Made by a program: the position numbers and the translations under genes. Shown piece after piece: positions 1,253 to 24,152 of a stretch of 64,000 nucleotides of DNA; position 1 is the first letter of the stretch, and every line of letters starts with the position of its first letter. The DNA lies in assembly GCA_022799035.1 (NCBI GenBank), contig JAAWNQ010000005.1:32126-96125 (forward strand). Reading direction: 5' to 3'. Origin of the DNA: Oscillospiraceae bacterium. Lineage in GTDB: Bacteria > Bacillota > Clostridia > Oscillospirales > Oscillospiraceae. Below the pieces are notes generated by a model, which was not told where the DNA came from, did not search any database, and worked only from the letters and a program-made list of their open reading frames with translations.

Positions 1253-1320
1253 CAGTGGGAACGATATTGCTTGGGGATGATGGATCTGTCCAGGCGGCAG
1301 GGGTGGGGGAGTACATAAGA

Positions 1321-1360
1321 AAACGCTGTAACCGTTTTCCTTGACGGTTACAGCGTTTTT
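1321..1360. terminator. Stem-loop terminator just inside the left end
   Basis: aaacgctgtaaccgt ttccttg acggttacagcgttt followed by TTT; 15-bp perfect stem. Confidence 0.85.
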
Positions 1361-1440
1361 GCAGTAATACCAGTGGGAGAGTACAAGGTAGATTTGCCTT
1401 ATGCCAATTTCCTAAGCATTGGAATATCTTACCATAATAT

Positions 1441-4837: not shown

Positions 4838-5011
4838 AAACGCCTCCCGCCAACAGAAACTGTATCGGAAATACCGCTATGGTACGCTTTTATTTATTTT
4901 GGCTTAAAGCCTACTACTTTTTATTATACTACAGCTTTCGATCTATCTCAACGAGTTTTTATGCATTATTCTCTGCAAACTTGCATTTTGCATACCGATA
5001 AAAAGTGGACA

Positions 5012-5058
5012 ACAAGAGAGAAGGCTCCTCCAATTTTGGAGGAGCCTTCTCGTTGTTT
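5012..5058. terminator. Bidirectional terminator
   Basis: gagaaggctcctcc aattttg gaggagccttctc perfect stem (5018-5051) with flanking A/T tracts. Confidence 0.85.
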
Positions 5059-5156
5059 ATTTCTGCAATAGATGGAATGTAGCTTCGTATATTTTTATAT
5101 GTCCATCAATATTTTTGACTGATGGTATCCGAAAACTTGTTCGTCTTCTATTTCTA

Positions 5157-7706: not shown

Positions 7707-7714
7707 ACCTCTCT

Positions 7715-8068
7715 TTATTTCAGTATTTGAATTATTTTCGATGTGACCATTAGAATAAGCTGCCCTGCCGCAAAGCCGCAGATAAACCCTGTCAACAGCC
7801 GCCGCAGGTTGGTGGATGGTTTTATCCCAAGTGCCTGGATCCCCCAGTCCAAAAGCATGATGCCGCACATCAGGACAATACACCAAACGGGAAGGCGCAC
7901 CCAGGCAAAGCTAAGCACTCCGACAGCCTCTCCCAAGAATACACCGGTGCATCTGGCGCAGACAGGGAATTGCTGTCCATGCCAGAAGAAGCTCCGTTCC
8001 GGCAGCTGATGGCAGCCTGACAGCCTGCCCAATGTCATGGCGGCCCTGTATGCCCGGCCTTTGCTCAT
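7715..8068 (-). CDS. DUF2085-like membrane protein
   Basis: GRLSGCHQLPERSFFWHGQQFPVCARCTGVFLGEAVG, Cys motif typical of DUF2085. Confidence 0.75.
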   Translation of the reverse strand: MSKGRAYRAAMTLGRLSGCHQLPERSFFWHGQQFPVCARCTGVFLGEAVGVLSFAWVRLPVWCIVLMCGIMLLDWGIQALGIKPSTNLRRLLTGFICGFAAGQLILMVTSKIIQILK

Positions 8069-8760
8069 GACGATAACCAGCTGTCTACAATGGAGCCACT
8101 GAACAGCAGCATCAGGACAACTACGACTGCCAGGCCAATGAGGACGGCTTTCTTCTGCTGCGGGTCAATAAGTTCCCCAAAGGGATAGCCCAACTCGTTG
8201 GAAAGGTCAACTTCGATCATCAGCCAAGCTCCCAACGGGATCCCGGCAAACAGCAAGACCCGTAGCAGGGTAAGGCTCCCATACAGGGCGCAGGCGGATA
8301 ACAGCAATGAACCTATTAAAGTAAGTACAAATGCGGTCAGCGCCATCGCCAAAGCTTTCTCCTTGGCATCCTTCTGGGAAAGATGTTCCTTGCCGCAGTC
8401 CTGACAGATCCATGCAGTCTCGTTCTTTACATCGACTCTGGTGCCAGTCCCACAAAGGCCGCACAGCAATCCGAATGGCCCCATCAGGCATAGCCCGCAA
8501 CAGCCGTTGGTCATGCTGTAGCTTGAGCCTTTGACCTTTGTAACATTTCTTGCCATCGGTTGGCAGTTGGAACTTCCGCAGTAGGGACAGGTGGTATCTG
8601 AATGGACACTCGGTTTAGGAACCGCCGATGGAGGTGATTCTTTTGCCTGTTCGGGGGGAGAAATCACTTTTGTTGGTACAGATTCCCGCAAAGCCACCCC
8701 ACATTTATGGCAAAACTTAGCCGCATCCGGATTTTCTGATTTACAATTTGGGCATCTCAC
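8065..8760 (-). CDS. Zinc-ribbon membrane protein
   Basis: MRCPNCKSENPDAAKFCHKCG...TTCPYCGSSNCQPMARN...; C-terminal hydrophobic helices; stop overlaps start of next gene. Confidence 0.8.
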   Translation of the reverse strand: MRCPNCKSENPDAAKFCHKCGVALRESVPTKVISPPEQAKESPPSAVPKPSVHSDTTCPYCGSSNCQPMARNVTKVKGSSYSMTNGCCGLCLMGPFGLLCGLCGTGTRVDVKNETAWICQDCGKEHLSQKDAKEKALAMALTAFVLTLIGSLLLSACALYGSLTLLRVLLFAGIPLGAWLMIEVDLSNELGYPFGELIDPQQKKAVLIGLAVVVVLMLLFSGSIVDSWLSS

Positions 8761-8864
8761 AGATATTGCCCCCTTCTTATAGATAACTATTTTCGGTATC
8801 TTATAACATATTTTACCACATCCTATTTCCGTTTACAATAACGAAAAAGGGGTGTTATAAAATA

Positions 8865-9200
8865 ATGGAGAAAAATCAGCTTGTCGATATTGGCCAGCGG
8901 CTGCGCCAGCGCAGGACCGAGCTGGGCCTGACCCGGGAGAAAATGTCTGAGCTGGCGGACATTGGAACCGGTTATTATGGGCAGTTGGAGGTAGGAACCT
9001 CTCAGATGTCGATTGACACCCTCATTAAACTCTCCCGCTCCATGCACCTGCCTATGGAATACATCCTTTTTGGCGAGGGCTATGAGCCGGGGGATCCATC
9101 CGCTGTTATAGATCTGCTGAGCCGATGCACCCCCAGAGAATTGAAACTGGCAGAGGAAATGCTGAAGCTCTTCCTGATGAAACAGGACAGCACCTTATAA
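8865..9200 (+). CDS. XRE-family HTH regulator
   Basis: IGQRLRQRRTELGLTREKMSELADIGTGYYGQLEVGTSQMSIDTLIKLSRSMHLPMEYILFGE; divergent from zinc-ribbon cluster. Confidence 0.9.
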   Translation: MEKNQLVDIGQRLRQRRTELGLTREKMSELADIGTGYYGQLEVGTSQMSIDTLIKLSRSMHLPMEYILFGEGYEPGDPSAVIDLLSRCTPRELKLAEEMLKLFLMKQDSTL

Positions 9201-9216
9201 TACCGTGAAATAAAAG

Positions 9217-9256
9217 CAGAAAGGTTAGCCACTGGCTAACCTTTCTGTGCTATAAT
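9217..9256 (+). promoter_or_regulatory. 31-bp perfect palindrome abutting a TATAAT -10 box; candidate operator/terminator
   Basis: cagaaaggttagcca c tggctaacctttctg (9217-9247), then tgctataat (TATAAT at 9251-9256). Confidence 0.7.
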
Positions 9257-9279
9257 AGGCTAAAATAGGAGGTGGGGTG

Positions 9280-9705
9280 ATGGATATGAAAACCACCAAC
9301 GAGTTGGTCAACGAGATCAAAGAGACCTCTGATATCCTGGACTATCTGGAGAAAAATAACAGAGAAATGCAGGTGGGCAGCCTGCCAGAGTATTTGAATA
9401 GTTGGCTGGAGAAAAAGGGCCGCTCAAAGGCCGATGTGATTCGGGGATCCAACCTGAACCGGGCCTATGTCTATCAAATCTTTTTGGGTTTGAAGTACCC
9501 CTCCAGAGATAAAATTATTGCTCTGGCCTTCGGCCTGGGATTGGATGCGGATGAAGTGCAGTCCTTACTCAAGCAGGCCGGTTACCGGGAGTTGTACCCC
9601 AGAGACCCCAGGGATGCTCTTCTCCTATACTCCTTCAGCCAAAGGAAAACGATTTTGGAGGCCAACGAACTGCTTTTTGACCATAATATCGAAGTTCTGG
9701 AATAG
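9280..9705 (+). CDS. HTH (XRE-like) regulator
   Basis: LEKKGRSKADVIRGSNLNRAYVYQIFLGLKYPSRDKIIALAFGLGLDADEVQSLLKQAGYRELYPRDPRDALL. Confidence 0.82.
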   Translation: MDMKTTNELVNEIKETSDILDYLEKNNREMQVGSLPEYLNSWLEKKGRSKADVIRGSNLNRAYVYQIFLGLKYPSRDKIIALAFGLGLDADEVQSLLKQAGYRELYPRDPRDALLLYSFSQRKTILEANELLFDHNIEVLE

Positions 9706-9743
9706 TAACTGCCGCCGGTCCGTAATGGATCGGCGGCAGTTTT

Positions 9744-10922
9744 TTAAAACAGGGGCGTATCAAAGATACTCATTTTATATACAGCTAAGATCGCCGGAGC
9801 GTACATACCCGGCTGGGCATCACATTCTTCTGGGGGGATCTCTTTCCAGGTTCCGTCTGCCCTGACCGCCCAAAGACCTTGAAATTGTCCATAGCTGTAT
9901 CGGCTCCCTGTGTACTCCCACTCGAAAAGCGCAAACAGTGGCCGACCGCTTTCATCTGCGTATCCCGAAAATACCGCAATACTGTCCGGGTATGCTTCTT
10001 TGAGCTGTGCGGCATAGGGCGCACTGTTCCCCTTTACGGGCGTGACAACGCTTTCCGCCGGGTCAGCCTTCTTCAGGGCTTCAATGTCCACCGTGCCAAA
10101 GACATAGTGCCGGTTGGTGAATCCAACCGTGTCAATGACCTCCCGCACCTCATCGCTGTGATAGTAGGCAAAAACGCCCACTCCGATCCAAAAGACCACA
10201 TACAACCCGGCCAGAGCCACCAGCGGCCGCAAAAGCCACCGCCGTACCCGGCCCAGGTAAACGGCCCGCTTGATTTGAGCGGTGGTATCATAACGGTCTT
10301 TAGGGTCCAGTGCGGTACACTTCCGCAAAATTCCTTTCCAGCGACTCCTTCGGGCCAACGGCCCCAACAATTGACGGAAAGTTACACCCAGTGCGTAGAT
10401 ATCCGCTCTCGCATCAGTCTGGGAGAAGCCATACTGCTCCGGGGGCGCATAGCCTCGGGTCCCCAGCAGGCGGGTATCCTTCCAGGCTTCCGGCTTCTCC
10501 TCCCGGGCAGCATCAAAGTCGATGAGTCGCAGGTGTCCGTCTGGGGCCAACATCAGATTGGAGGGCTTGATATCCCGGTGGAGGATGCCCTTGCTGTGGA
10601 GGAAGGACAGCACATCACACAGCTCCAGTAGCAGCCTTGTCAACTGCCGCTCGCTCAGGCTGACCGTTCCAAGGTCAGTCCCTTCGATATATTCCTCCAA
10701 CACAACGGTTCGGTCGCCTTCCCATTCCGCCTTCCATATCCGGGGCAGATAGGGGTGATGCAACTCCCTAAGCTGTTCATAGATGGGGTTCCAGTCCGAC
10801 ATTTCCTTGCAAACAAAGCGCTCTCCACTTTCGGTATCCCGAAGCAAGGTTACTTGATTGCGCTCTGAGGAATGTAAAATTTCTATCGTTTCCAGCAAGA
10901 CGGTCACCCCCTCTGCGCCCAT
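9744..10922 (-). CDS. Serine/threonine protein kinase with C-terminal TM segment
   Basis: GILHRDIKPSNLMLAPDGHLRLIDFDAAR...GTRGYAPPEQYGFSQTDARADIYALGVTF; TM LLRPLVALAGLYVVFWIGVGVFAYY. Confidence 0.93.
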   Translation of the reverse strand: MGAEGVTVLLETIEILHSSERNQVTLLRDTESGERFVCKEMSDWNPIYEQLRELHHPYLPRIWKAEWEGDRTVVLEEYIEGTDLGTVSLSERQLTRLLLELCDVLSFLHSKGILHRDIKPSNLMLAPDGHLRLIDFDAAREEKPEAWKDTRLLGTRGYAPPEQYGFSQTDARADIYALGVTFRQLLGPLARRSRWKGILRKCTALDPKDRYDTTAQIKRAVYLGRVRRWLLRPLVALAGLYVVFWIGVGVFAYYHSDEVREVIDTVGFTNRHYVFGTVDIEALKKADPAESVVTPVKGNSAPYAAQLKEAYPDSIAVFSGYADESGRPLFALFEWEYTGSRYSYGQFQGLWAVRADGTWKEIPPEECDAQPGMYAPAILAVYKMSIFDTPLF

Positions 10923-10977
10923 TCTACCACACTTGCCGTCCAGAAAAAAGAGCGGAGGGTATCCGCTCGCCATTATT

Positions 10978-11178
10978 TTAGATTTGTGGTTTCCACCCCA
11001 TAAGATCTGTCCGTTTCACCCTCCACTGTTTCCCAATCCGGAAGGCGGGGATTTTTCCTTCACTGGCAAGGACGTAGAATTGATTGCGACCGATAGCCAG
11101 CTCCTCCATGACCTCTTTTGGTGTCATAAACTCATATTCTCGCTGCTCCTCTTGTTCATCCTCGTTATAGGAATACAT
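10978..11178 (-). CDS. Excisionase-family (HTH_17-like) DNA-binding protein
   Basis: EFMTPKEVMEELAIGRNQFYVLASEGKIPAFRIGKQWRVKRTDLMGW is the typical excisionase-family winged-helix pattern. Confidence 0.82.
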   Translation of the reverse strand: MYSYNEDEQEEQREYEFMTPKEVMEELAIGRNQFYVLASEGKIPAFRIGKQWRVKRTDLMGWKPQI

Positions 11179-11291
11179 AGAAACACTCCTTTCCGGGTCT
11201 AATTAACCCTTACTAAAGTGTTTTGAGCTGGATAACAACTAAATAATAAAGTCAACGCATATACAAAAATTATCTCAAAGGAGGGGTTGAA

Positions 11292-11432
11292 ATGAAGAAT
11301 CAGCCTTTCAAAATCAATTATCTGGATTTCCTGATCCCTATGGGTTACGCACCTGGGCGTCAGACTGGAAGCAAAAAGTCAGATGCTTTGCCGGTAAAGG
11401 ATAAGCTGGCAAAGGAAAAGAACCATAAATAA
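11292..11432 (+). CDS. Small protein, 46 aa (below ORF-track cutoff)
   Basis: RBS aaaggagg then MKNQPFKINYLDFLIPMGYAPGRQTGSKKSDALPVKDKLAKEKNHK*. Confidence 0.6.
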   Translation: MKNQPFKINYLDFLIPMGYAPGRQTGSKKSDALPVKDKLAKEKNHK

Positions 11433-11848
11433 ATCTTATGTACAGGAAGGGATACAGCAACACGCTGTGTCCCTTCTCTTTTATGTTTTGCGGCATTTCC
11501 CTATTGCTCCCGCTATGCGTTGGTTTGTCCCGGCAGAGGTGTGTATTATTTCCATGGAAGCGCTCAGCCCCGTCATTGTAGGCGAATACGGGACTGAGTG
11601 CCTTTTTATATTCTCTGAAAATCAGTCAAACGGGAGGTGAAATGTTATGTTGGAGGCGGTTTTGTTCGCAATTCGAGCCCGAATCAGTTATGCAATTGCC
11701 CAGTTCCTCAATCACGAATGGAAGGAGATGACCTGAATGTTTATCCGAACGCACCGCAAAATGCTCAATACCCTGTTAGCCGCCATCGTTGCCGCAGCTG
11801 CGGCCTTTCTCTGCTCTGCCATCGACTCTCTGACCGAGGAGGATCATC

Positions 11849-12109
11849 ATGGAACCAATGATTACCCGGCTGATGAATTCTGAGTTTCCCTATGGTGACC
11901 CGGAGTTTACCGAGCTTCAGAGAGAAGCGGATGCCATTCAGAAGCAGCTGGAGCCTACTCTTGGCCCCAAAGAAAATGAACTTGTCCAGCAGTTGGCAGA
12001 TATCCCCATCCGGCAGTTCGGCCCGGTGACCCGGGATGCCTTTATGGAGGGCTTCTGTGCCGCCTACACTCTGCTGGAGGAGATCAGATTCCACCAGGAA
12101 GGGAGCTGA
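11849..12109 (+). CDS. Hypothetical, DUF6809-like element protein
   Basis: MEPMITRLMNSEFPYGDPEFTELQREADAIQKQLEPTLGPKENELVQQLADI... Confidence 0.65.
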   Translation: MEPMITRLMNSEFPYGDPEFTELQREADAIQKQLEPTLGPKENELVQQLADIPIRQFGPVTRDAFMEGFCAAYTLLEEIRFHQEGS

Positions 12110-12118
12110 ATATTTCCC

Positions 12119-12340
12119 ATGAGTAAGATTGAGATTCAAGGCGACCGCCGAAAGGCCCAGCGTTTCGGTGAGTGGCTGGTCATCTGGGAAGTCTACAAGT
12201 GGGACATCACCGAAGAAAATGAGGATGTCAAGGAGTGCGTTGCCCGGTTCTACGATGCCAGGGAAGCCATGGCATGGACTATCGCTACCTTTGGCGTTGT
12301 GGAAACCAGCGTGGAGGCCAGCATGACCAAAGCATTCTAA
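12119..12340 (+). CDS. Hypothetical small protein
   Basis: MSKIEIQGDRRKAQRFGEWLVIWEVYKWDITEENEDVKECVARFYDAREAMAWTIATFGVVETSV; collinear with neighbours. Confidence 0.55.
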   Translation: MSKIEIQGDRRKAQRFGEWLVIWEVYKWDITEENEDVKECVARFYDAREAMAWTIATFGVVETSVEASMTKAF

Positions 12341-12369
12341 AAATTATCAAATCAAGGAGGAAATCTATT

Positions 12370-13305
12370 ATGTCCGCCAATGTTGAAACCATGTTCTATG
12401 CCCGGGAAGCCCCCTGGCACGGTTTGGGGGTTCGGGTAGAGGATGCCCTCAGCTCCAAGGAGGCGCTGGAAAAGTCCGGCCTGAACTGGAGAGTCCTTCA
12501 AAAACCTATTACGACCAGCCCCTTTGGGTCGCCCATTCCCGGCTATAAGGCAAATGTCCGGGATACCGACAGCAAGGTTTTGGGCATCGTCACTGACCGC
12601 TATCAGGTGGTCCAGAATGAGGAGGCCTTTGCCTTCACTGACGCTTTGCTGGGTGAGGGGGTCAAGTATGAGACTGCCGGCAGCCTTGCCGGAGGAAAGC
12701 GTATCTGGATCCTGGCAAAGCTACCCGAAAAGTACATTATGAGCGGCGACGCCATCAGTCCCTACATGGTCGTTACCAGCTCCCATGATGGCAATGGCTC
12801 CATCAAGGTAGCCATGACACCCATTCGGGTGGTCTGTCAGAACACCCTCAATCTGGCTCTGTCCACAGCAAAAAGAAGCTGGGCCACGGTCCATGTGGGG
12901 GATCTGGCCGCCAAGATGGATGAAGCCCACAACACCCTGCTGCTGGCCGAGCAGTACATGAACAAGCTGGGCGGTGAATTCAACAGGCTTTCCAAAATCA
13001 AGCTCTCCGACCAGACAGTGCTGGACTTTATTGATCTGCTCCTACCTATGGAGAACGAGGAAAGCAGTATTCACCGTAATAATGTGCGCCGCTCCAGGGA
13101 AGACATGAAGAGCCGCTACTTTGACGCTCCGGATCTGAAAGGGCTGGACAAGAATGGATACCGCTTTATCAACGCCGTGTCCGACTTTGCCACCCATGCC
13201 CAGCCTGCCCGCACCACGGCCAACTATAAGGAGAATGTCTTTGCCAAAACTTTGGACGGACACCCCTTGATTGACAAGGCTCATGAGCTGATTCTGGCAG
13301 CATAA
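12370..13305 (+). CDS. DUF932 phage/plasmid-like protein
   Basis: MSANVETMFYAREAPWHGLGVRVEDALSSKEALEKSGLNWRVLQKP...VVCQNTLNLAL; RBS caaggagg. Confidence 0.88.
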   Translation: MSANVETMFYAREAPWHGLGVRVEDALSSKEALEKSGLNWRVLQKPITTSPFGSPIPGYKANVRDTDSKVLGIVTDRYQVVQNEEAFAFTDALLGEGVKYETAGSLAGGKRIWILAKLPEKYIMSGDAISPYMVVTSSHDGNGSIKVAMTPIRVVCQNTLNLALSTAKRSWATVHVGDLAAKMDEAHNTLLLAEQYMNKLGGEFNRLSKIKLSDQTVLDFIDLLLPMENEESSIHRNNVRRSREDMKSRYFDAPDLKGLDKNGYRFINAVSDFATHAQPARTTANYKENVFAKTLDGHPLIDKAHELILAA

Positions 13306-13317
13306 AGGAGGGGCATC

Positions 13318-14259
13318 ATGGCAAATGTCCTTGTGTCCACCGAAAACTTGCCCTACGCCGACTGGCTGGAATGGCGAAAGAAAGGCATCGGCGGAAGTGA
13401 CGCCTCGGTGGTTTGCGGCATCAACCGCTACAAGTCCCCGGTGGAACTGTGGATGGAGAAGACCGACCAGCTCCAGCCCCAGGAAGCCGGGGAATCTGCT
13501 TATTGGGGAACGATCCTGGAAGCTGTTGTCCGGGAGGAGTTCACCAAGCGCACAGGCTTAGAGGTTTGTCTGGTAAAACAGCTCCTCCAGAGTGAGGAAC
13601 ACCCCTTCATGTTGGCCAATCTGGACGGTGTTTGCGACCACCCGGACTATGGCACCTGTATCTTCGAGGCCAAAACCGCTACCGCCTATAAAGCAGGGGA
13701 ATGGGAAGATTCCATCCCGGACGAGTACTACCTTCAGATCCAACACTACATGGCCGTGACGGGTTATCAGGGGGCCTATATCGCCGTTCTCATTGGGGGC
13801 AACACCTTCAAGTGGAGGTTCGTGGAACGGGATGAGGAATTGATCGCTACCCTTATCCGGTTGGAAGCCGACTTCTGGCATCATGTGGAGGATCTGACCC
13901 CACCGCCCCTGGACGGCTCCGATGCCTCGGCGAAATTCCTTGCCGAGCAGTTCCCCACCAGTGTCCCACAGAGCCATATTGATCTACCAGCCAATGCCGC
14001 CGATCTGTTCCGACAGTATGATGCTGCCTGTGAACAGTTGGAGACCGCCACCGAGCAAAAGCAGCAGGTGGAAAACCTGTTGAAGCAAATGATGGGAGAC
14101 AATGAGGTGGGCGTTGCCGGAGAGCGGATCATCACCTGGAAGAGTGTGACCCAAGAGCGGTTGGATACCAAAACTCTGAAAAGTGAACACCCTACCCTAT
14201 ACCAGAAATACGCCAACAAAACATCGTACCGCCGCTTCTCCATTAAGGTGGCGGGATAA
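13318..14259 (+). CDS. YqaJ-type viral recombinase/exonuclease
   Basis: WLEWRKKGIGGSDASVVCGINRYKSPVELWMEKTDQ...VREEFTKRTG...HPFMLANLDG...FEAKTA...YYLQIQHYMAVTG. Confidence 0.92.
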   Translation: MANVLVSTENLPYADWLEWRKKGIGGSDASVVCGINRYKSPVELWMEKTDQLQPQEAGESAYWGTILEAVVREEFTKRTGLEVCLVKQLLQSEEHPFMLANLDGVCDHPDYGTCIFEAKTATAYKAGEWEDSIPDEYYLQIQHYMAVTGYQGAYIAVLIGGNTFKWRFVERDEELIATLIRLEADFWHHVEDLTPPPLDGSDASAKFLAEQFPTSVPQSHIDLPANAADLFRQYDAACEQLETATEQKQQVENLLKQMMGDNEVGVAGERIITWKSVTQERLDTKTLKSEHPTLYQKYANKTSYRRFSIKVAG

Positions 14260-14271
14260 GGAGGTCAAAAC

Positions 14272-15039
14272 ATGAACACCGCAGCGCTGAAAACCAAGCT
14301 GGATACCAAAGCCCAGGCTATCGCTGAATCCGTGGAGGAAGAGACTGCCGCTGCCCTTGCCCCAGTTGATTCCAATTACCTGGCTCTGTCCGGTAATGCC
14401 ATTGACATCATCCGGGCCAACCTGAAAAGCCAGCCTCTGACCATGCAATTCTTCGATGTGGTCAAGTCCCCCTCTGGAGGATCCACCGTATTCTCTGTTC
14501 CTGGCCTGGCTGGGGATGAGGCTGAGAAGGAGCTGACGGGCATTATTCTGGACTACACCACCCCTCGGGCCTACTGGGATACTCCTGACCCAGTGGAGGG
14601 TACGCCCCCGGTGTGCTACAGCCCGGACAGTCTTATTTCCGCTGATGGAAAGGCCTGCGCCCACTGCCCCTATAACACCTTTGGCTCCAAGGATGGGGAA
14701 AGTAACGCCAAGGCTTGCAAGGAGTCTGTAGCTCTGTTCCTGCTCAGGCCGGATAACATCATGCCCATCATCGTTCGGGTACCTGTGACAAGCAAACTGA
14801 TCTTCCAACGGTACATGGCCCGGCTGATCGGCAAGATGATGCCCCTGTCTGGGGTGGTGACCAGAATCACTTTGGAAAAGGCCACCAGTAAGGGAGGCAA
14901 GCCCTACGCCCTGTATCACTTCGAGGCGGTCAGTGCCCTCAGCCCAGAAGAAGCTGCCAAGGCCAGAGAGTATGCCGGCCAGTTCATGGACATTATGGCT
15001 GCGGCCGAGCTGGAGCCAGAGTTGTCCGCTGCAAGCTAA
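14272..15039 (+). CDS. Hypothetical element protein downstream of yqaJ
   Basis: Collinear with yqaJ, RBS aaggagg; CAHCPYN..KACK Cys cluster; possible ssDNA-binding role from context only. Confidence 0.65.
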   Translation: MNTAALKTKLDTKAQAIAESVEEETAAALAPVDSNYLALSGNAIDIIRANLKSQPLTMQFFDVVKSPSGGSTVFSVPGLAGDEAEKELTGIILDYTTPRAYWDTPDPVEGTPPVCYSPDSLISADGKACAHCPYNTFGSKDGESNAKACKESVALFLLRPDNIMPIIVRVPVTSKLIFQRYMARLIGKMMPLSGVVTRITLEKATSKGGKPYALYHFEAVSALSPEEAAKAREYAGQFMDIMAAAELEPELSAAS

Positions 15040-15103
15040 AGTAATCCCGGTGCCTCCCTCTTTTGGGGGAGACACCGGGCTAATTATAAGAAGGAGTGAA
15101 ATC

Positions 15104-15394
15104 ATGACACCGATTCCCTATGAATCAAAACATATGGTCCCTGTAATCCTGACTGCCGAGGATGGCACAGAATACTGTGGGGAGTATGTGGATATGCGGA
15201 TCGACCGTAAGACCATCCCGGAGGGTAAATATGCCTATTCCTGCCGCCATGATGATAGTGGAGACTGGGTCACCCCTGCAACCATTGAAAGATGGGCCTG
15301 GGTCAACTTCGCCGGAACCTTCGTTACCGAAACCCCTATTGACCTTTCTGACAAGAGACCCTTCATCTCGCTGAAGGAATGTTGCTTTGTGTGA
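15104..15394 (+). CDS. Hypothetical small protein
   Basis: MTPIPYESKHMVPVILTAEDGTEYCGEYVDMRIDRKTIPEGKYAYSCRHDDSGDWVTPATIER...; RBS agaaggag. Confidence 0.65.
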   Translation: MTPIPYESKHMVPVILTAEDGTEYCGEYVDMRIDRKTIPEGKYAYSCRHDDSGDWVTPATIERWAWVNFAGTFVTETPIDLSDKRPFISLKECCFV

Positions 15395-15458
15395 AAGGCG
15401 GGCCGACTGGATACCATTTGAAAGAGAGGTGTCGACTTTTGCACCATTAGTACAAAAA

Positions 15459-15496
15459 ACAAAAAGGAACGGTTAAACACAGTTCCTTTTTGTTTT
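15459..15496. terminator. Terminator hairpin
   Basis: aaacaaaaaggaac ggttaaacaca gttcctttttgtttt. Confidence 0.8.
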
Positions 15497-15507
15497 GCAA
15501 ATTTTAA

Positions 15508-15536
15508 TTGATTTCCCACTTTGTTCGTGCTATATT
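15508..15536 (+). promoter_or_regulatory. Sigma-A-like promoter with ~230-nt leader
   Basis: TTGATT (15508) - 17 nt - TATATT (15531); no coding signal before the 15774 start. Confidence 0.55.
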
Positions 15537-15773
15537 GCGGACAAGAGAGTGTGTATGAAAACCTGCCGTACCAGAATGGCCGATGCAACCTCGTAGCGCA
15601 AGCTGACTGGAGGGAAAGAAAGCCGTCCTCATTGAAGAGCAGGTTGGAGTGGGGGTGATAAGGTTTTCCTTTTTTCTCATGGCCCTTACTGGGGAGAGGG
15701 GTTACACCTGCCACCGGAAGGATGAGGGACATAGGGTGCCGGGGAGACACCTGAAGAATTGGAGGAGGAGATT

Positions 15774-16964
15774 ATGAGTGAAGACACGAAAGGAAAAAGT
15801 CTCTCTCGGGAAGATATAGAGCGTCCGCTGAGGGCAGATCACGGTCAACGTCATAAGTCAAGCAGGAAATTCCCGGGATTTGATGAGGTTCTGAACGAGG
15901 CTTTTTCGACTTATGATACCTTGCCGGATATTAAAGATTGGCAGGACCAATTTGAGGACTTCTTATATAAACTTGGGGTCGATTCTATGATTCTGCGAAT
16001 CAAGCAAAAAAACGCTGAAGATACCTCCGGAAGAGGATTTGTATATGAATTTCCACCATCTGTAGCAGTATTGTTAAAAGACTTCATGCAAAATTCTAAG
16101 AGGCCATATAAGGGAAGGCGTCCATGCGACAACAAAAAGTATCAACTATATCATAATATAGCGCTTGGTCGCTTCTCAGTCACTTATTGTGACGATTATC
16201 GCATTATATTAAATCAGGTAATTGACGGTGTAAAGGAACTGCATACAGCTTATGGAATACCCCCTCGCAAAACCGAAAAGGTTGTTGATCAAACGGTCAT
16301 TAACTTCTGGACCTCCATAGAACAGGGGACACAAGAGTATCGCAGAGAATATATCTCTCCGCTGGTTGAATACCTCTTGGGATTGCAAGCGGTCTTTCCC
16401 TTCAGGAAGTTGAAAATGGTTTCGCAATATGCATTTGAAAATGTGCTTTCACGAGAAATATTGATTCTGCTTGATTATGCCATAAGTCAAGACTTTTATA
16501 CCTGTTTTCATATGGCCCTGACGACAAAAGTACAAGAAAAAGACATCGTGTTCAACAGACTCTGTGTATTTAGGAAAAAATGGGCACGAGTTGTCAAAAA
16601 GGTTTTTGTCATTCATCAACATGATAGAGATTATGCATTAGGTTTGCCGGATAACGTGTTGAAGAGTGATTACTATAGCTTAGCGGAAAAATTGGTACTC
16701 TATTCGGGGACAGCGTGTAGCCGAAGTGATAAGCGGTCTCATTTTCGTGAAAATGCGCCCAAAATACGAAAAGACCGGGATACATACCGAAAGATGTATA
16801 AAGCTTTGCTACGTGATGTAGAACTTATACCCGAAGATCCGATTAAAATGCAAGGGAAAAAAAGATTGCATCCATCGACATGGTTGTTTTTGGATATGGC
16901 GTCAAAAGAGCAAAAAAAACTTGTTCGAGCAAGGAAACGCCGCAATATCCGACGTTTCCGTTAA
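15774..16964 (+). CDS. Hypothetical protein (~396 aa), AT-rich orphan
   Basis: MSEDTKGKSLSREDIERPLRADHGQRHKSSRKFPGFDEV...; RBS ggaggaggag; lower GC than adjacent genes. Confidence 0.78.
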   Translation: MSEDTKGKSLSREDIERPLRADHGQRHKSSRKFPGFDEVLNEAFSTYDTLPDIKDWQDQFEDFLYKLGVDSMILRIKQKNAEDTSGRGFVYEFPPSVAVLLKDFMQNSKRPYKGRRPCDNKKYQLYHNIALGRFSVTYCDDYRIILNQVIDGVKELHTAYGIPPRKTEKVVDQTVINFWTSIEQGTQEYRREYISPLVEYLLGLQAVFPFRKLKMVSQYAFENVLSREILILLDYAISQDFYTCFHMALTTKVQEKDIVFNRLCVFRKKWARVVKKVFVIHQHDRDYALGLPDNVLKSDYYSLAEKLVLYSGTACSRSDKRSHFRENAPKIRKDRDTYRKMYKALLRDVELIPEDPIKMQGKKRLHPSTWLFLDMASKEQKKLVRARKRRNIRRFR

Positions 16965-17068
16965 GAGCTTGGATAATCGTAGCAAGCATAGAAGGGCAAA
17001 ACTTTATTGGGAAGGGAATTATCCTTTTATAATTTTTCTATTTACCCATAACTTTATCTTTTCACATA

Positions 17069-17110
17069 AGGCATAATGCAGGTGTTCCTCTCCAAAGAGG
17101 GACACCTGCT
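17069..17110. terminator. Terminator
   Basis: gcaggtgttcctc tccaaa gagggacacctgc tttttcg. Confidence 0.8.
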
Positions 17111-17209
17111 TTTTCGCAACTTGGTGGATCAAAGCGGTCTGCACCTTGAAAACAGAATATTCAGTCTACCGTTCTTTCAGAGCCTCCCCCAAATAAGGAG
17201 GTTTTGAAA

Positions 17210-19141
17210 ATGAAGAAGGGTATTAAAAAAGTGGTTGGAATTGTAGCCATGGGAGCTGGGCTCTACCTTTTGTATCGGATTATTATTGGTAAGGGCGATA
17301 GGCAACTGGATCGCAGGGATAACCTGGTGCCATCCACTCCGATCCCCGAACTGTTAATGTCCTCAACCGAAGGTGGGGTGTGGTTTGGAATTACCCCTGC
17401 TTCCTGTGAAGGCAATAAGGGTTCCAATAAGGTTGTTAACAGAGCTTACGGCAAGCCGACAAGTAAAGATGGCAATGTCCTGATTATCGGCGGCCCGGGC
17501 TCTGGGAAAACCACCGGTCCCATCAACCATACCCTAAAAACATGGAATGGCAGCCTTGTAGCCTTCGACTGCAAGGGAGGTATGGAAAACCTTTGGTATG
17601 ATCTCCACGCCGACGATGGGAAGGCTCCCATCGTTTTCGCTCCATGCCGCAAGCGAGGCGGCCCTTCCGCATATGATCCGTTTGCCATAATGCGGTTGGA
17701 TCCAAACCATGCAAAGGAATATGCCTGTGATTTGGCAGACGCACTTATCCCCATCAGTGTGTCCGAGCGAGAACCGGTCTGGAAAGAAAATGCCCAAAAT
17801 ATCCTAACAGGAATGTTTCTGTATCATTTCGATGTTGGTAACACCTTTATGGATGCCATAAAGTCTATAGAGGTTTTGTCAATCCCGGATATGATAGAGG
17901 TTCTTGGGAACAGCGGAAATGAACGGGCGTGGGCGTTTGTCAGCAAATTGGCAGGGGCCTCGGTGAAAACATTGGCAAGTGTTGGAGCAGAACTCAGTCA
18001 AGTCTCACGGTTGCTTTTGACCGAGGAGATTGAGGCAGCTCTTACCCCTGTATTGGGCCAACCGCTTCTTGACTGGAGCGACCTAAATACCAGCCGCACC
18101 TCACATGGTGTCATCCTCGACATTCCTTTGGGAAAGTTGAGGCAATGTGCCCCGTTAGTCAGACTGGTTTTGTCCCAGCTATTGAAGACCCTTGCCTTAC
18201 GGAGGGAAAAGACCTATTCCGGATGTGACTTGCCGGATGTGGCCCTCTTGTTAGATGAGGTGGCTCAGTTGGGACGCATGGAAGTCATCACAGATTCCCT
18301 TGCTACCTTACGCAGCAAAGGGGTCACTATGGTACTTGCCATACAGTCCCTTGCTCAGCTGGAAGAAAGCTACGGAAAGGCGGCAGCTCGTATCGTTGCC
18401 GATCTGTGCAGCTACAAGGTAGTGTTCAATGCGACTGATGTAGAAAGTCAGGTTTATCTGTCAGCGCTCATTGGGACCACTGATGTGCTTGCTGATACCG
18501 TCTCTTTCAACCCCAAAGGCCGCCACTTATTAAAACAAGTGGTGCCGGTGCCAAATGTGGGGGTAACGGCCGGGCGAACCAACCGGCCATTGATCTATCC
18601 GGAGACTCTGGCTTATTTGAGCCAGCCCATCGTGATTAGCCCCTTTGGGGTAAATACAGTGCAGAAAGCTCCCCTATACCTTCGGCAGGTCAAAGCAACC
18701 CCTCTTTCGCTATGTGTGGAGGGTCACGATGACTCTATCTATGAGATAAAAAAGCAACTCAACGAGATAGGAAAACAGTTTTTGGCTCTTACCCAGCCGG
18801 AGGCTTGTGATTGCCCTCGTAGTGGCGATTACAAACTGGCAGTGGATAATACAACGAAAGAGAGGTTGCCGGACAAGATATGTGACTTCTGCCAAACGGA
18901 GCCGCGAAGTGCCAGGGAGATCCGGGAGCAATTTGACATAGAGAAAACACTATGTCAAGAAGTGTATATCAAACCGCTACTCAATCAAGGGCGGTTAATG
19001 ATGTTGTACCCAGACACTCCAAGGCATCCTCAGCAGAAATATTATTCATCCAACTCACCCGAACTTACTGAAAACTCCTTTGCGCAGTTAAACAAAACCA
19101 GCGGAAAGGAAGGGGAGGAAGGTGAGAATGATGATGATTAA
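17210..19141 (+). CDS. VirD4/TraG-type coupling protein (T4CP)
   Basis: NVLIIGGPGSGKTTGPINHTLKTWNGSLVAFDCKGG (Walker A), LPDVALLLDEVAQLG (Walker B), SKGVTMVLAIQSLAQLEESYG. Confidence 0.95.
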   Translation: MKKGIKKVVGIVAMGAGLYLLYRIIIGKGDRQLDRRDNLVPSTPIPELLMSSTEGGVWFGITPASCEGNKGSNKVVNRAYGKPTSKDGNVLIIGGPGSGKTTGPINHTLKTWNGSLVAFDCKGGMENLWYDLHADDGKAPIVFAPCRKRGGPSAYDPFAIMRLDPNHAKEYACDLADALIPISVSEREPVWKENAQNILTGMFLYHFDVGNTFMDAIKSIEVLSIPDMIEVLGNSGNERAWAFVSKLAGASVKTLASVGAELSQVSRLLLTEEIEAALTPVLGQPLLDWSDLNTSRTSHGVILDIPLGKLRQCAPLVRLVLSQLLKTLALRREKTYSGCDLPDVALLLDEVAQLGRMEVITDSLATLRSKGVTMVLAIQSLAQLEESYGKAAARIVADLCSYKVVFNATDVESQVYLSALIGTTDVLADTVSFNPKGRHLLKQVVPVPNVGVTAGRTNRPLIYPETLAYLSQPIVISPFGVNTVQKAPLYLRQVKATPLSLCVEGHDDSIYEIKKQLNEIGKQFLALTQPEACDCPRSGDYKLAVDNTTKERLPDKICDFCQTEPRSAREIREQFDIEKTLCQEVYIKPLLNQGRLMMLYPDTPRHPQQKYYSSNSPELTENSFAQLNKTSGKEGEEGENDDD

Positions 19142-19973
19142 GACGAACATCGTTCGTGCTGATGGTATTAGCCGTGGTGCGGGGCAGTCAGTGGCTGGGC
19201 ATCTGGCCTACTGTACCGGGAGAGCTTACCGGGATTCATACTACGGCAAAAAGGCATATGGGGAAAAGCGGGCAGACCTCGTGTTTGACGAACTGCTTCT
19301 TCCGTCCCAGGCTCCTGCGGCACTTCGGGAGTATCAAGCGTTTTTGGATGCCTGGAATGCCAGTGAGAAGCATCCCAGGGCGCTTATGGCCCACAAGTAC
19401 ATTCTGGCTTTACCCAACGAACTGGATGCGGCGGAATGGATCGGGTTGGCCCGTTCCTATGCGCAAGAGATGTTTGTGAGCCGGGGCTTTCCCGTGTTCT
19501 ACGCCATCCACCGTGGGCTTGCCAGTGAACATCCCAAGCCGGAAAGTATTCAGGCAGTAGGTACTCGGGAAGATAACCCCCATGTACACCTGCTTGCCGC
19601 ATTCCGACAAGTGGGGGAAAATGGCTTTTTGGACACGAAATACGCCGGAAGGACCACATACGGAAAGGACTTTCTCCGACAGGTACGCCAAAACTGGTGT
19701 GCCTGTGTGAATCGTAGCTATGAGCGGCAGGGAGTCGATGTTCGGTTTGTGGAAGGGGCGTATCGAAACGGGTTGATGGCTGGACTGCCAACAAAGCACA
19801 TTGGCCCTTATGCTATGCGGCTGGAAGCAGCCGGAATAAAAACCGAGGCGGGAGACCGCTACCGGTCGATCTTATCCCAAAACAGAGTCCGCAAGCAGGA
19901 ATGTGATCATGAGTTCCTACTTGTGGACAGCCAAGACAAAGAACATGAATATTGCGCAGATCGTGAGGAATAA
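19128..19973 (+). CDS. MobA/MobL-family relaxase
   Basis: GQSVAGHLAYCTGRAYRDSYYGKKAYGEKR...YILALPNELDAAEWIGLARSYAQEMFVSRGFPVFYAIHRG...DNPHVHLLAAFRQVGENGF (HxH relaxase motif); overlaps T4CP 3' end. Confidence 0.9.
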   Translation: MMMIKTNIVRADGISRGAGQSVAGHLAYCTGRAYRDSYYGKKAYGEKRADLVFDELLLPSQAPAALREYQAFLDAWNASEKHPRALMAHKYILALPNELDAAEWIGLARSYAQEMFVSRGFPVFYAIHRGLASEHPKPESIQAVGTREDNPHVHLLAAFRQVGENGFLDTKYAGRTTYGKDFLRQVRQNWCACVNRSYERQGVDVRFVEGAYRNGLMAGLPTKHIGPYAMRLEAAGIKTEAGDRYRSILSQNRVRKQECDHEFLLVDSQDKEHEYCADREE

Positions 19974-20062
19974 CATTCAATCTGCAAGATGCTGGGAGGC
20001 TCTGCAAGAGCGGTAGAATCCTTATCCATGCTATCTGGGAACATGACCAAAGGAGGTAGATC

Positions 20063-20248
20063 ATGAAAAAGTTGAAACGGCAAGAATCAATTCCGGGGCA
20101 GTTGACTCTGTCTGACTTACTCCCGAAAGAGATTCTTTATCCCTCAATCTGGAACAGTCAGCCGAAGGGAGCGGAGACCCATTGTGTATGCGGAAAGGAA
20201 GAGACGCAGAGCGTACAGTCGCAGGCGAAGAGTACCCTGAACCCATGA
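20063..20248 (+). CDS. Small hypothetical protein (61 aa)
   Basis: Strong RBS aaaggaggtagatc before ATG; MKKLKRQESIPGQLTLSDLLPKEILYPSIWN... Confidence 0.55.
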   Translation: MKKLKRQESIPGQLTLSDLLPKEILYPSIWNSQPKGAETHCVCGKEETQSVQSQAKSTLNP

Positions 20249-20261
20249 AGGAACCCGATGA

Positions 20262-20302
20262 GGCACCTTGCCCAGACGGAGGGGCTGTCTGGACAAGGTG
20301 CC
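20262..20302. repeat. Long hairpin downstream of relaxase; candidate oriT-like or regulatory structure
   Basis: ggcaccttg c ccagac ...ggaggggct... gtctgg a caaggtgcc; 15 paired positions with one internal mismatch and no T-run afterwards. Confidence 0.5.
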
Positions 20303-20543
20303 CATTAATAAATCGGAAAGGAGGGGCATCGGCACTTTGATCGTCCTCAGCAGCGCTATTTCTGCCGTTTGTGTTGGTGAATTATTTGAAGGAAGAGATG
20401 CCACATAGCGCTCACCAGCGCAAAACTTTACGGAAGGAAGATCACTATGAGTACAATCAGCGCCGGAATGGGAGGACCAGGTGTGCGGAATGGGAAGGCT
20501 TTTTGTTGGCAAGAATAGGAAAAGGACGGTGAGTTCTTTGACT

Positions 20544-20750
20544 ATGAATGTGAACGAAGAGAGCCATATCGTGGAAATATGGCTGACCAACGCAGAGAAA
20601 ACGAGCGAGACTGTTTGTCAGCGCTTGAAGCCTATATTCTCTGTGTATAAGAAGCAGGGTTATCTGGTGGCGGTATTTGAATCAGGGGATCAAGACCTGG
20701 CAGGGCTCACCAGCGCTCTGCTGTGTGAAAATCGCACACGCCTGGCGTGA
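20544..20750 (+). CDS. Small hypothetical protein
   Basis: MNVNEESHIVEIWLTNAEKTSETVCQRLKPIFSVYKKQGYLVAVFESGDQDLAGLTSALLCENRTRLA; followed by a terminator. Confidence 0.6.
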   Translation: MNVNEESHIVEIWLTNAEKTSETVCQRLKPIFSVYKKQGYLVAVFESGDQDLAGLTSALLCENRTRLA

Positions 20751-20754
20751 GAAG

Positions 20755-20790
20755 TGGAGCCACAGGGATTTCCCTGTGGCTCCATTTTCC
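20755..20790. terminator. Terminator
   Basis: tggagccacaggga tt tccctgtggctcca ttttcc. Confidence 0.8.
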
Positions 20791-20856
20791 TATTGTCATT
20801 TTTTGATTTTTCTGTTACAATGTTATCGGGAAATAATATGCCGGAGGGTAATCGTT

Positions 20857-21891
20857 ATGGATAATAAAAATGACGAACTGATGAAGGCTGGCGAGGTGCT
20901 GCTGTACAGCGATAACAATGGCAAAGAGTTTGTGAGTGTGGTTTTTCAGGAGGAGAATTTCTGGCTGACACAGAGCGGGATGGCACAGCTCTTTGACTGT
21001 ACCCCGGAAAATGTGCTTCAGCACTTGAAGAACATCTATGCCGAGGAGGAATTGGAACAAGAGGCAACTACTAAGAAATTCTTAGTAGTTCGTCAGGAGG
21101 GGTCCAGGCAGGTCCAGCGCAATCTGGACCACTATAACCTGGACGCCATCATTGCCGTGGGCTACCGAGTGAATTCCAAAAAAGCAACCCGGTTCCGCCA
21201 GTGGGCCACCAAAACCCTGAAGGAGTATATCCAAAAGGGTTTCGTCCTCAACGATGAACTGATGAAGAATGGCCGACCCTTCGGGAAGGACTACTTCGAC
21301 GAGCTTCTGGAGCGCATCCGGGAGATCCGAGCCAGCGAGCGCCGGGCCTACCAGAAGATCGCCGACATCTTCGAGCAGTGCAGCTATGACTACGACAAAG
21401 ACAGCGAGACAACCAAGGCATTCTATGCCTTTGTACAGAACAAGCTCCATTTCGCTGTCACCGGCAAGACGGCGGCAGAGCTGATCAGCGAGCGGGCCAC
21501 CTTGGACAGCCCCACCATGGGCCTTACCACCTGGAAGGCAGGTCCCGGAGGGAAGATTTTGAAAAGTGATACCCTGGTGGCCAAGAATTACCTGAATGAG
21601 AAGGAGATCTCCCGCCTCAACCGTCTGGTCACCATGTTCATCGACTATGCCGAGCTGATGGCCGAGGATGAAGTGCCTATGTCCATGGAGGACTGGCTTG
21701 CAGAGACCGACCAGTTTCTGACCAACAATCGCCGAAAGGTGCTGGCCGGAAAGGGGAAGGTCTCCCGGGAAGAGGCAGAGAGAAAGGTCTCCGCCATTTA
21801 TGAGGAGTTCCGCAAAAAGCAGGATGCCGCCTACATCTCGGAATTTGACCGCCAGACGGCGAAATACCTGAAGGGTGAAACCGATGATTGA
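20857..21891 (+). CDS. RhuM-family protein
   Basis: ENFWLTQSGMAQLFDCTPENVLQHLKNIYAEEELEQEATTKKFLVVRQEGSRQVQRNLDHYNLDAIIAVGYRVNSKKATRFRQWATKTLKEYIQKGFVLNDELMKNG. Confidence 0.95.
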   Translation: MDNKNDELMKAGEVLLYSDNNGKEFVSVVFQEENFWLTQSGMAQLFDCTPENVLQHLKNIYAEEELEQEATTKKFLVVRQEGSRQVQRNLDHYNLDAIIAVGYRVNSKKATRFRQWATKTLKEYIQKGFVLNDELMKNGRPFGKDYFDELLERIREIRASERRAYQKIADIFEQCSYDYDKDSETTKAFYAFVQNKLHFAVTGKTAAELISERATLDSPTMGLTTWKAGPGGKILKSDTLVAKNYLNEKEISRLNRLVTMFIDYAELMAEDEVPMSMEDWLAETDQFLTNNRRKVLAGKGKVSREEAERKVSAIYEEFRKKQDAAYISEFDRQTAKYLKGETDD

Positions 21892-24112
21892 AAAATTTGA
21901 TATAGCAGGTTACTGCCGAATCTCGGTGGACGAGGAGCTGGACCGGGACAACACCTCCATCGAGAACCAGAAGGCCATCATCGAGGATTTTGTAAAGCAC
22001 AGGTTCCCTGGATCAACTCTGACCTTCTACGAAGACCGGGACAAGTCGGGTTACACCTTTGACCAGCGGCCCGGCTATCAGGTCATGCGCCGGGAGCTGG
22101 TGACACATCAAAAGGACATCCTCATTGTTAAGGACTTTTCCCGGTTTTCACGGCGGAACAGTCGGGGACTGGTGGAACTGGAGGACCTGCGTGATGCCGG
22201 TGTCCGCATTATCTCCATCGGGGACAACATCGACTTTCCCAACGATGACGACTGGCTTAAAATTCAATTCCAGTTCCTTATCAACGAAATGCCCGTCACC
22301 GATGCCAGCAAGAAGGTCAAGTCAGTCATCCGCCGCCGACAGGAGGATGGCCGCTGGCTCTGTGCCGCCCCCTATGGATATATCATCAATTCCCGGCAGG
22401 AGTTTGAGGTGGTTCCCACCGAAGCCGACATTGTGCGGAAAATTTTTACCCGCTACATTGATGGATGGGGATATAAGAAAATTGCGGGCTACCTCACGGA
22501 CCAGAACATTCCGACTCCCCGTATGTGTGAGGAGACCCGGAGAGAAGCGGCGGGGAAGGAGGTCAAGCGCCGGGCTAAAAGCGCATGGTCCATCGTATCC
22601 GTCCAGGGCATCATCGACAATGACTTTTATATCGGCACCTTCCGCCAGCGGAAATATACCCGTGTGAAGATCAATGGGAAAGACCGTAAGCTGGACGAGA
22701 GTGAGAATGTGGTCATTGAAAACCACCATCAGGCTATTCTCGACTACCGCACCTTCGCCACGGCCAAGGCCCTGCGGGAAAGCCGCTCTACCGCCAACTA
22801 CCGGGGGGTAAAGAAGTACGACAATGTGTATTCCGGCTTTCTGGAGTGCGGCGACTGCGGCAGCCCCATGTTTGCCATGAGCCGGGCAGATCTGAAGCCG
22901 GCCTACCGCTGCGGGACTTATCATAATCGAGGGTTAAAGGGCTGCACCAGCCACCATATCCGGGTGGACAAGCTGGACGAGGTGCTGAAGGCCTACCTCC
23001 GCAAGGTGAGGGACAACTCGGCGGAGATGTTGGACCGGCTCAACGCCGACCTTGCCAGGGAGCAGGAGGACATTGGGGCGACACAGCAGGCCGCCGAGAA
23101 TCTGGAGACTGTTCTTGCTGATTTGCAGGAGGAGTTGAAGGCCACCAAGCGCCAGCGTATCCGGGATGTGATGAAGCACCCGGAACAGGAGGAGACTCTG
23201 GAGGCCACCTACGACGAGCTGGAGAACGACCTCCTGCGTCGTATTGACGGCATTCAGAACCAGATTGCCATGACAAACGACCGTCGGAACACCATCATTC
23301 GGGTGAATCGGGCGGCCAAGACGGCTATGGAGGTTTTTGAGGACATTCTGAATAAGCCCAAGCTGGATCGAAACGACCTCCAGCTCATCATTGAAAAAAT
23401 CAAGGTCTACGAGGATCATATCGAGGTGCAGCTGAAAGCTGATATTGACAGCATCCTCCGCAGCGGCGAATTGCCGGAGGATCTGACAGGGGAGAATGTA
23501 GGGGAGGATAGTGTCCACCCGGATTCAGTTGCCGCCATGGCTCCGGCCAACATTCCATTGGAGCGGCAGGCGGCTGACAGCCGTCCCTATGAGATTCAAA
23601 TCATCCAAGAAAGTGATAAGCACAGCGATAAGGTTTTCTCTGTCAAAGTTATCAGTAACGGCGACCCGCTGGAGATCTACACCGACAAGGATGGCGAGGT
23701 CATCTTCAAAAAGTATTCCCTTATGGGTGGCCTTTCCGACTTCGCCGCCCAGATGTGCGAGACCCTGAACAAGACCACCGGCCACGTCACCGTCATCACC
23801 GACCGGGACAGCTGTATCGCCGTGGCGGGAGCTCCCCGCCGGGACCTGATGGACAAGCGGCTGGGGGAGCGGATGGAGGCTGTGCTGGAGGGTCGAAAGA
23901 TCTATCAGGCCCAGCCCGGAGAGACCCCTATGCCCGTCAGTGACGAATCCGGCAAGTTTTTCGTCACCTGCGCCGCTCCCATCCTGGCCGAGGGGGACGT
24001 GCTGGGGTGCGTTCTCTTTGCCGGTGAGGAGGGGGACCTTCAGACCGGGGATACCGAGTACAAGCTGCTGCAATCCATGTCCGGCTTCCTTGGTCGCCAC
24101 ATGGAGGGGTGA
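21884..24112 (+). CDS. Large serine recombinase; C-terminus currently fused in frame to the SpoVT C-terminal part
   Basis: AGYCRISVDEELDRDNTSIENQKAIIEDF (catalytic Ser region), KDFSRFSRRNSRGLVELEDLRDAGVRIISIGDNIDF, CGDCGSPMF...YRCGTYHNRGLKGCTSHHIR zinc ribbon, coiled coil. Recombinase part ends about 23659; the remainder is SpoVT. Confidence 0.95.
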   Translation: MIEKFDIAGYCRISVDEELDRDNTSIENQKAIIEDFVKHRFPGSTLTFYEDRDKSGYTFDQRPGYQVMRRELVTHQKDILIVKDFSRFSRRNSRGLVELEDLRDAGVRIISIGDNIDFPNDDDWLKIQFQFLINEMPVTDASKKVKSVIRRRQEDGRWLCAAPYGYIINSRQEFEVVPTEADIVRKIFTRYIDGWGYKKIAGYLTDQNIPTPRMCEETRREAAGKEVKRRAKSAWSIVSVQGIIDNDFYIGTFRQRKYTRVKINGKDRKLDESENVVIENHHQAILDYRTFATAKALRESRSTANYRGVKKYDNVYSGFLECGDCGSPMFAMSRADLKPAYRCGTYHNRGLKGCTSHHIRVDKLDEVLKAYLRKVRDNSAEMLDRLNADLAREQEDIGATQQAAENLETVLADLQEELKATKRQRIRDVMKHPEQEETLEATYDELENDLLRRIDGIQNQIAMTNDRRNTIIRVNRAAKTAMEVFEDILNKPKLDRNDLQLIIEKIKVYEDHIEVQLKADIDSILRSGELPEDLTGENVGEDSVHPDSVAAMAPANIPLERQAADSRPYEIQIIQESDKHSDKVFSVKVISNGDPLEIYTDKDGEVIFKKYSLMGGLSDFAAQMCETLNKTTGHVTVITDRDSCIAVAGAPRRDLMDKRLGERMEAVLEGRKIYQAQPGETPMPVSDESGKFFVTCAAPILAEGDVLGCVLFAGEEGDLQTGDTEYKLLQSMSGFLGRHMEG
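23641..23661 (+). repeat. Left attP arm (element side of attR)
   Basis: tgtcaaagttatcagtaacgg; inverted partner of 1232-1252. Confidence 0.7.
23660..23668 (+). repeat. attR core copy GGCGACCCG
   Basis: Identical to 1226-1234 and in the same frame. Confidence 0.88.
23660..24112 (+). pseudogene. spoVT: spoVT 3' part (C-terminal GAF-like domain), separated from its start by the element
   Basis: GDPLEIYTDKDGEVIFKKYSLMGGLSDFAAQMCETLNKTTGHVTVITDRDSCIAVAG...MSGFLGRHMEG continues the SpoVT pattern from 1136-1234. Confidence 0.92.
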
Positions 24113-24152
24113 AAAAATGTCCGTCCCCGATTTGGGGGGCGGACATTTTTTC
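24112..24152. terminator. spoVT terminator
   Basis: aaaaaatgtccgtcccc gatttg gggggcggacatttttt. Confidence 0.88.

Follow-up and report, generated by a model that had tools for sequence, protein, structure and literature searches.

In the Myxococcus phage Mx8, attP lies inside the integrase coding sequence, and integration supplies a new 3′ end that alters the protein and changes the specificity of the integrase (PMC6070905). In mycobacteriophage BPs, whose immunity depends on integration, attP is also located within a coding gene, and the C-terminus of the product depends on integration (PMC4557955). Among serine integrases, engineered fusions carrying an RDF at this end change direction and drive the reverse reaction, attL x attR (PMC5737554).

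Several elements with serine recombinases (skin/sigK, SPbeta/spsM, gin/gerE, vfbin and vrin) split a sporulation gene, and their excision restores the frame. Serine recombinases excise such elements from sigK, spsM, and gerE in sporulation. SPbeta and skin are excised in the mother cell only and thereby persist in the spore (PMC4191935). Expression of spoVT in C. difficile is controlled by sigma F and sigma G, and an spoVT mutant yields no heat-resistant spores (PMC3789822).

Here, we describe a mobile element of spore-forming bacteria from the gut that splits spoVT and whose large serine recombinase is fused in frame to the sensor domain of SpoVT when integrated. The window analyzed was the whole stretch of 64,000 nucleotides of Oscillospiraceae DNA. 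The swap of the C-terminus was well supported at the sequence level, and the architecture was solid; its regulatory meaning is a testable hypothesis.

Organization of the Element and the Split spoVT Gene

The element was 22,434 bp (22.4 kb) from repeat to repeat. It was bounded by the direct repeat GGCGACCCG, of which exactly two copies existed in the window, and it split spoVT after codon 33 (Table 1). The reconstructed attP showed inverted arms around GA with 13 of 20 symmetric positions, as in the attachment sites of large serine recombinases, and this symmetry made GA the probable crossover dinucleotide. The attP consensus across elements also supported inverted half-sites about a central dinucleotide. 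The center of attB was at approximately codon 32 of spoVT, in the codon phase common to the attP core.

When the outer flanks were joined in silico, an intact SpoVT of 180 aa was obtained, a restoration of the skin type, and the empty sites in related genomes contained intact spoVT genes of 180–181 aa. A second spoVT copy was not found in the source genome, which had only an AbrB-like paralogue. The element encoded a coupling protein as well as a relaxase of the MobA/MobL type, which together with the integrase make it a putative integrative mobilizable element. A serine/threonine protein kinase gene was observed in the cargo on the minus strand (9744–10973).

Table 1. Positions of the features of the element and of the interrupted spoVT in the window.
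Feature	Position	Strand	Basis or remark
spoVT 5′ part, codons 1–33 (MKATG...IREGDP), ends in core	1136..1234	+	Kept in fusion genomes examined
attL core GGCGACCCG	1226..1234	.	Repeat match in window
Element body between cores	1235..23659	+	Putative integrative mobilizable element
Recombinase native 3′ end, 27-codon tail SQTALTQWERYCLGMMDLSRRQGWGST plus stop	1235..1318	+	Protein conservation, 27 distinct elements
Intrinsic-terminator-like hairpin directly 3′ of tail stop	1319..1362	+	MFE -27.7 kcal/mol
VirD4/TraG-type coupling protein	17204..19141	+	Pfam T4SS-DNA_transf
MobA/MobL relaxase	19122..19973	+	Pfam
RhuM-family gene, stop overlaps recombinase start (ATGATTGA)	20857..21891	+	Pfam and sequence
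Large serine recombinase moiety up to GDP, 595 codons; attP P arm encodes ...VISNGDP	21884..23668	+	Pfam
attR core GGCGACCCG	23660..23668	.	Codon phase identical to that of spoVT
spoVT 3′ part, codons 34–180 plus stop (SpoVT_C, GAF-like), in frame from recombinase	23669..24112	+	Pfam PF15714, Foldseek 2w1r/2w1t, empty-site comparison
Terminator-like hairpin 3′ of spoVT	24113..24151	+	MFE -27.6 kcal/mol

The Recombinase–SpoVT Fusion Protein

The preliminary description placed the attachment core within the coding sequence of the recombinase and had the recombinase frame continue through it into spoVT codons 34–180 as an ORF of 745 aa. Both positional claims were borne out, as the direct repeat lay within the open frame 21884–24112 (plus strand) and no stop interrupted the frame through the 9-bp core. 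The length was 742 aa from the ATG at 21884; 745 aa was reached only via an upstream GTG at 21875.

Pfam assigned four domains to this single protein: Resolvase (7–158), Recombinase (178–301), Zn_ribbon_recom (316–373), and SpoVT_C (617–741). The first three together (resolvase, recombinase, and zinc ribbon) identify a large serine recombinase, and Foldseek agreed. Its matches for the fusion were serine integrase–DNA complexes (9y66, 9dxh, and 9rah) and B. subtilis SpoVT (2w1r/2w1t). The fusion was not a SpoVT regulator in the sense of an N-terminal AbrB/MazE DNA-binding domain plus a C-terminal GAF-like domain, because it contained SpoVT_C without residues 1–33 of the DNA-binding domain. In the AlphaFold model of the fusion, pLDDT was below 50 at residues 591–612, around the junction, and owing to this low confidence the model was left out of the mechanism.

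When the inner ends were joined, a recombinase of 622 aa was produced, ending in ...VISNGDP-SQTALTQWERYCLGMMDLSRRQGWGST with the stop at 1316–1318, which agreed with the 27-residue tail and the stop at 1318 described earlier for the circle. The in silico joins of flanks and inner ends thus confirmed that the two states encode different C-termini, because the attachment core is within the recombinase coding region. As in Mx8, attP was inside the integrase CDS, and a new 3′ end arose on integration.

Distribution of the Fusion

Among 300 genomes of the same family, the recombinase was present in 44, and 39 of these contained the in-frame SpoVT_C fusion. For 34 of the fusions the junction was followed through each residue, and for five others a single open frame of ~720–790 aa covered both halves. 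The remaining five of the 44 comprised G014 and G029, with the recombinase elsewhere and spoVT intact; G216, with the element inverted in spoVT; and G143 and G150, with distant relatives (47–49% identity) at the same site and a stop before the core. The recombinase relatives located outside the intact spoVT were loci L098 (G014) and L132 (G029), and the gene in G014 was frameshifted.

In the GTDB contig collection, 76 of 78 loci with a readable junction were fused identically, and they belonged to Oscillospiraceae, Butyricicoccus, Agathobaculum, Ruminococcaceae, and Chakrabartyella piscis (Lachnospirales), the last with the fusion on a complete chromosome. Named carriers included Flintibacter muris, Oscillibacter valericigenes An411, and Butyricicoccus pullicaecorum. 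The phage set yielded two faecal scaffolds, of which one contained a fusion (52% identical) and the other stopped short of the junction.

Fusions at the same residue had been proposed as something to look for in other genomes, and the junction was indeed at the identical SpoVT residue in all 91 distinct full-length fusions, with a stop-free connecting segment of 27 to 83 residues. This constancy, together with the intact spoVT at empty sites, indicated that the fusion did not arise by chance. The detached SpoVT 1–33 was present in most fusion genomes, 12–40 kb away where the two ends shared a contig.

Some loci showed further arrangements. In contig C23 of G031 (L266–L267), which was not circular, the attR/attL order was incompatible with simple insertion, and 18.5 kb of chromosomal genes separated SpoVT_C from SpoVT_N. 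In Flintibacter muris (L259) and Flavonifractor sp. An306 (L260), other sequence took the place of spoVT codons 1–9, with the break immediately before DDLGR; this resembles a second insertion into the gene at codon ~10. In about a dozen elements, the spoVT B-arm sequence ACCATGCGTATCCGCGAGGG had a match of 15–19 of 20 positions inside the left end, at a fixed distance of about +110 bp from the attL core (for example L079 in G095, L088 in G223, L075 in G281, and L072 in G197), and shuffled sequences mostly reached 10–12. This match, which was absent from the element of the window, is possibly an extra recombinase half-site.

Conservation of the Native Tail

The consensus of the tail following the SpoVT 1–33 fragment was roughly SQTTLTxWERFCFGMLDLAKRxGW, then a stop. 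In 27 distinct tails, codons 7–21 had a pS of 0.81 vs. a pN of 0.30, with most variation at third positions (p = 0.002, permutation within codons). The first six codons, which form the P′ arm, displayed low silent variation (pS 0.37) and were constrained as DNA, as expected of an att arm. The codon analysis thus disfavored a pure att-site DNA constraint as the cause of tail conservation. This protein-level conservation in different elements, the hairpin after the stop, and the retention of the tail in an inverted element mark it as the native C-terminus of the recombinase; being conserved, it matters to the circular-form enzyme.

In G216 (L096/L097), the element was in the opposite orientation in spoVT, and the core was apparently flipped. 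The recombinase read into antisense spoVT, and the tail adjoined SpoVT_C in antisense, not SpoVT N. The reconstructed circle ended in ...NIISVRS-PPLITLTPKQEFISNMLHLAKRICGE followed by a stop, with the tail still recognizable and in frame with the recombinase. In this one inverted case the tail was kept away from SpoVT N, and therefore it follows the recombinase, not SpoVT. The tail was absent in G143 and G150, both of which had an earlier recombinase stop. Second copies of the tail motif, unattached to SpoVT N, were observed 9–11 kb from the first in G092 (L226) and G369 (L228), which suggests stacked or decayed elements.

The hairpin behind the tail stop would be predicted to end the recombinase gene in the circle and the truncated spoVT transcript when integrated, and similar hairpins were found after the tail in some other elements. 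A conserved terminator after every tail found no support in a strict scan, which recovered 8 of 29 and missed the obvious hairpin of the window. An unusually amphipathic tail found no support either; the hydrophobic moment was no better than that of shuffles, and thus no helix is claimed. A degradation-tag motif in the style of BPs was not recognized in the tail.

Proposed Mechanism and Alternative Explanations

As the best explanation, we propose, with a fair degree of probability, an element with attP in int and a state-dependent C-terminus, whose fused form is altered. As read from the sequence, the circular form would encode Int(595)-tail(27), closed by a native stop and followed by its own terminator. 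Integration exchanges the 3′ ends of int and spoVT and creates two forms of each protein, leaving the tail on SpoVT 1–33 at one end and producing Int-SpoVT(34–180) at the other; excision would restore both genes. The tail form may be the integration-proficient enzyme, and the fused form may be weaker, be held in place, or require a directionality factor. The C-terminus would then report the chromosomal state of the element and help prevent immediate re-excision. The precedents of Mx8 and of the RDF fusions make an altered fused form reasonable, and, as the preliminary description suggested, the two forms might differ in activity or in ligand response.

The recurrent same-residue fusion, the protein-level constraint on the tail, its retention in G216, the identity break at the junction, the full-length SpoVT_C under purifying selection, and SpoIVA in the hosts favored this explanation, as did the unfused relatives in G143 and G150, which had no tail. 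Against it, the joined attP was not found in 400 family genomes, none of which contained a contiguous Int-tail (the circular or unjoined form), or in the viral contigs searched, and no circular form was detected in the plasmids searched. Moreover, G143, G150, and G216 showed integration without SpoVT fusion. Selection on the tail, combined with the shared core and codon phase, would keep the fusion in frame automatically, and so the conserved fusion is no independent evidence for a role of SpoVT_C in the recombinase.

Compatible with the state-dependent C-terminus, and holding with or without a functional swap, is the quite possible explanation that the element is skin-like, is excised in spore formation to rebuild spoVT, and bears the fusion only incidentally. 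SpoIVA was detected in 41 of 41 genomes tested, so these hosts carry the sporulation program. Both halves of spoVT were intact, and SpoVT_C was full length in all 91 fusions and under purifying selection. Its dN/dS was about 0.35–0.44 in fusions vs. 0.24–0.35 in uninterrupted genes, values for qualitative use only, as they came from non-independent pairs (pairwise Nei-Gojobori) with near-saturated dS in two groups that differ in diversity. On these sequences a slight relaxation on the fused SpoVT_C is possible, and decay of spoVT in the fusions is excluded. Given sporulating hosts and an spoVT free of decay, the best explanation would likewise have the element vacate this gene at least whenever its product is required, or else persist only briefly in any lineage. 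The need for SpoVT in heat-resistant C. difficile spores (PMC3789822) and the excisions from sigK, spsM, and gerE at sporulation are in line with a skin-like element. However, C. difficile expresses spoVT in the forespore, whereas the described cases of SPbeta and skin show excision in the mother cell only. Excision in the forespore would strip the element from the spore chromosome unless it reintegrated, and no sporulation-timed RDF was identified.

A serious rival, in our judgment possible though rather doubtful, is that attP overlaps the 3′ end of int for compactness only, that the circular enzyme just requires the tail to fold or to be active, and that SpoVT_C is tolerated without a regulatory role. 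Many integrases have attP adjoining int. Tail selection and the common codon phase already explain the persistence of the frame, G216 possesses the tail without a SpoVT fusion, and the relatives in G143 and G150 occupy the same place unfused. However, integration still costs the enzyme a conserved segment, and the two forms should therefore differ to some extent; Mx8, BPs, and the Int-RDF fusions are precedents that such changes matter.

An extended version of the state-dependent C-terminus was considered unlikely, namely that the recombinase senses both the integration state and a host signal. The fused form would excise the element in response to the ligand of SpoVT or to the state of sporulation, and would do so even within the forespore, and the native-tail form would reinsert after germination. 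If true, the element could occupy an essential forespore gene and not be lost from the spore line. It is more improbable still that the tail is conserved as part of a useful small SpoVT(1–33)-tail protein, such as an interfering SpoVT fragment. The integrated tail is in frame with SpoVT 1–33 under the spoVT start, as this would require, but the tail in G216 is antisense by SpoVT_C and still in the recombinase frame (one case), and the elements that lack the tail are precisely those whose recombinase stops earlier.

Renewed Formation of the Fusion in Different Hosts

The recombinases of O. valericigenes An411 (L148) and L152 shared 96% amino acid identity, vs. 53% for SpoVT_C; those of L183 and L186 likewise shared 96%, vs. 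42%. In several pairs, the nucleotide identity dropped at the core or shortly behind it, as in a fall from 0.95 to 0.83 and 0.72 in successive 25-codon bins. This break indicated that the recombinase moves between hosts and acquires whatever spoVT is there. It is the trace expected from site-specific integration, and the fusion is thus formed anew in every host from the resident spoVT.

Inheritance of an ancient, fixed fusion gene as one unit, suggested by the recurrence of the two-domain ORF in many genera, was rejected as practically incredible, since the two halves have different histories that break at the core, and attL with SpoVT 1–33 is found elsewhere in the same genomes. An assembly or binning artefact deserves as little credit, for many loci came from metagenome-assembled genomes but cultured isolates as well as complete chromosomes showed the identical structure (G078, G128, and Chakrabartyella piscis BP5G).

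Significance and Comparison with Known Systems

No description of spoVT with a serine recombinase or an intervening element was found in the open-access literature, and the acquisition of a host sensor domain by a serine recombinase appears to be unreported. To our knowledge, this would be the first described serine recombinase that is recoded by its own reaction, through a host sensor domain borrowed at each landing. The two protein forms are natural test pieces for how the C-terminus of a large serine integrase sets direction. The location also poses a puzzle. The described sporulation elements avoid loss through excision in the mother cell only, but members of this widespread family occupy spoVT, which in C. 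difficile is expressed in the forespore and required for heat-resistant spores. As cultured carriers exist, both questions are directly testable.

The recombinase moiety resembled the integrases of SPbeta (YokA) and phiC31 in domain order and fold, according to the same Foldseek matches to integrase–DNA complexes. In YokA and phiC31 integrases, attP is outside the coding sequence. Compared with the skin-type elements, the target here was the forespore regulator spoVT instead of a mother-cell gene, and the recombinase was fused to its target. The integrase-RDF fusions differ in being engineered, and they carry their cognate RDF as the extra domain, a role not known for SpoVT_C. In BPs, the gene encodes a repressor, which integration only shortens by a tail that serves as a degradation tag. 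The closest precedent, Mx8, has a tyrosine integrase, whereas the enzyme described here was a large serine recombinase of a putatively mobilizable element distributed in many genera, and its integration removed a conserved tail of 27 aa and added a host sensor domain of 147 residues. Thus, the Mx8-like position of attP inside the integrase gene was already known, and the serine recombinase, the host sensor domain, and the sporulation-gene target are new here.
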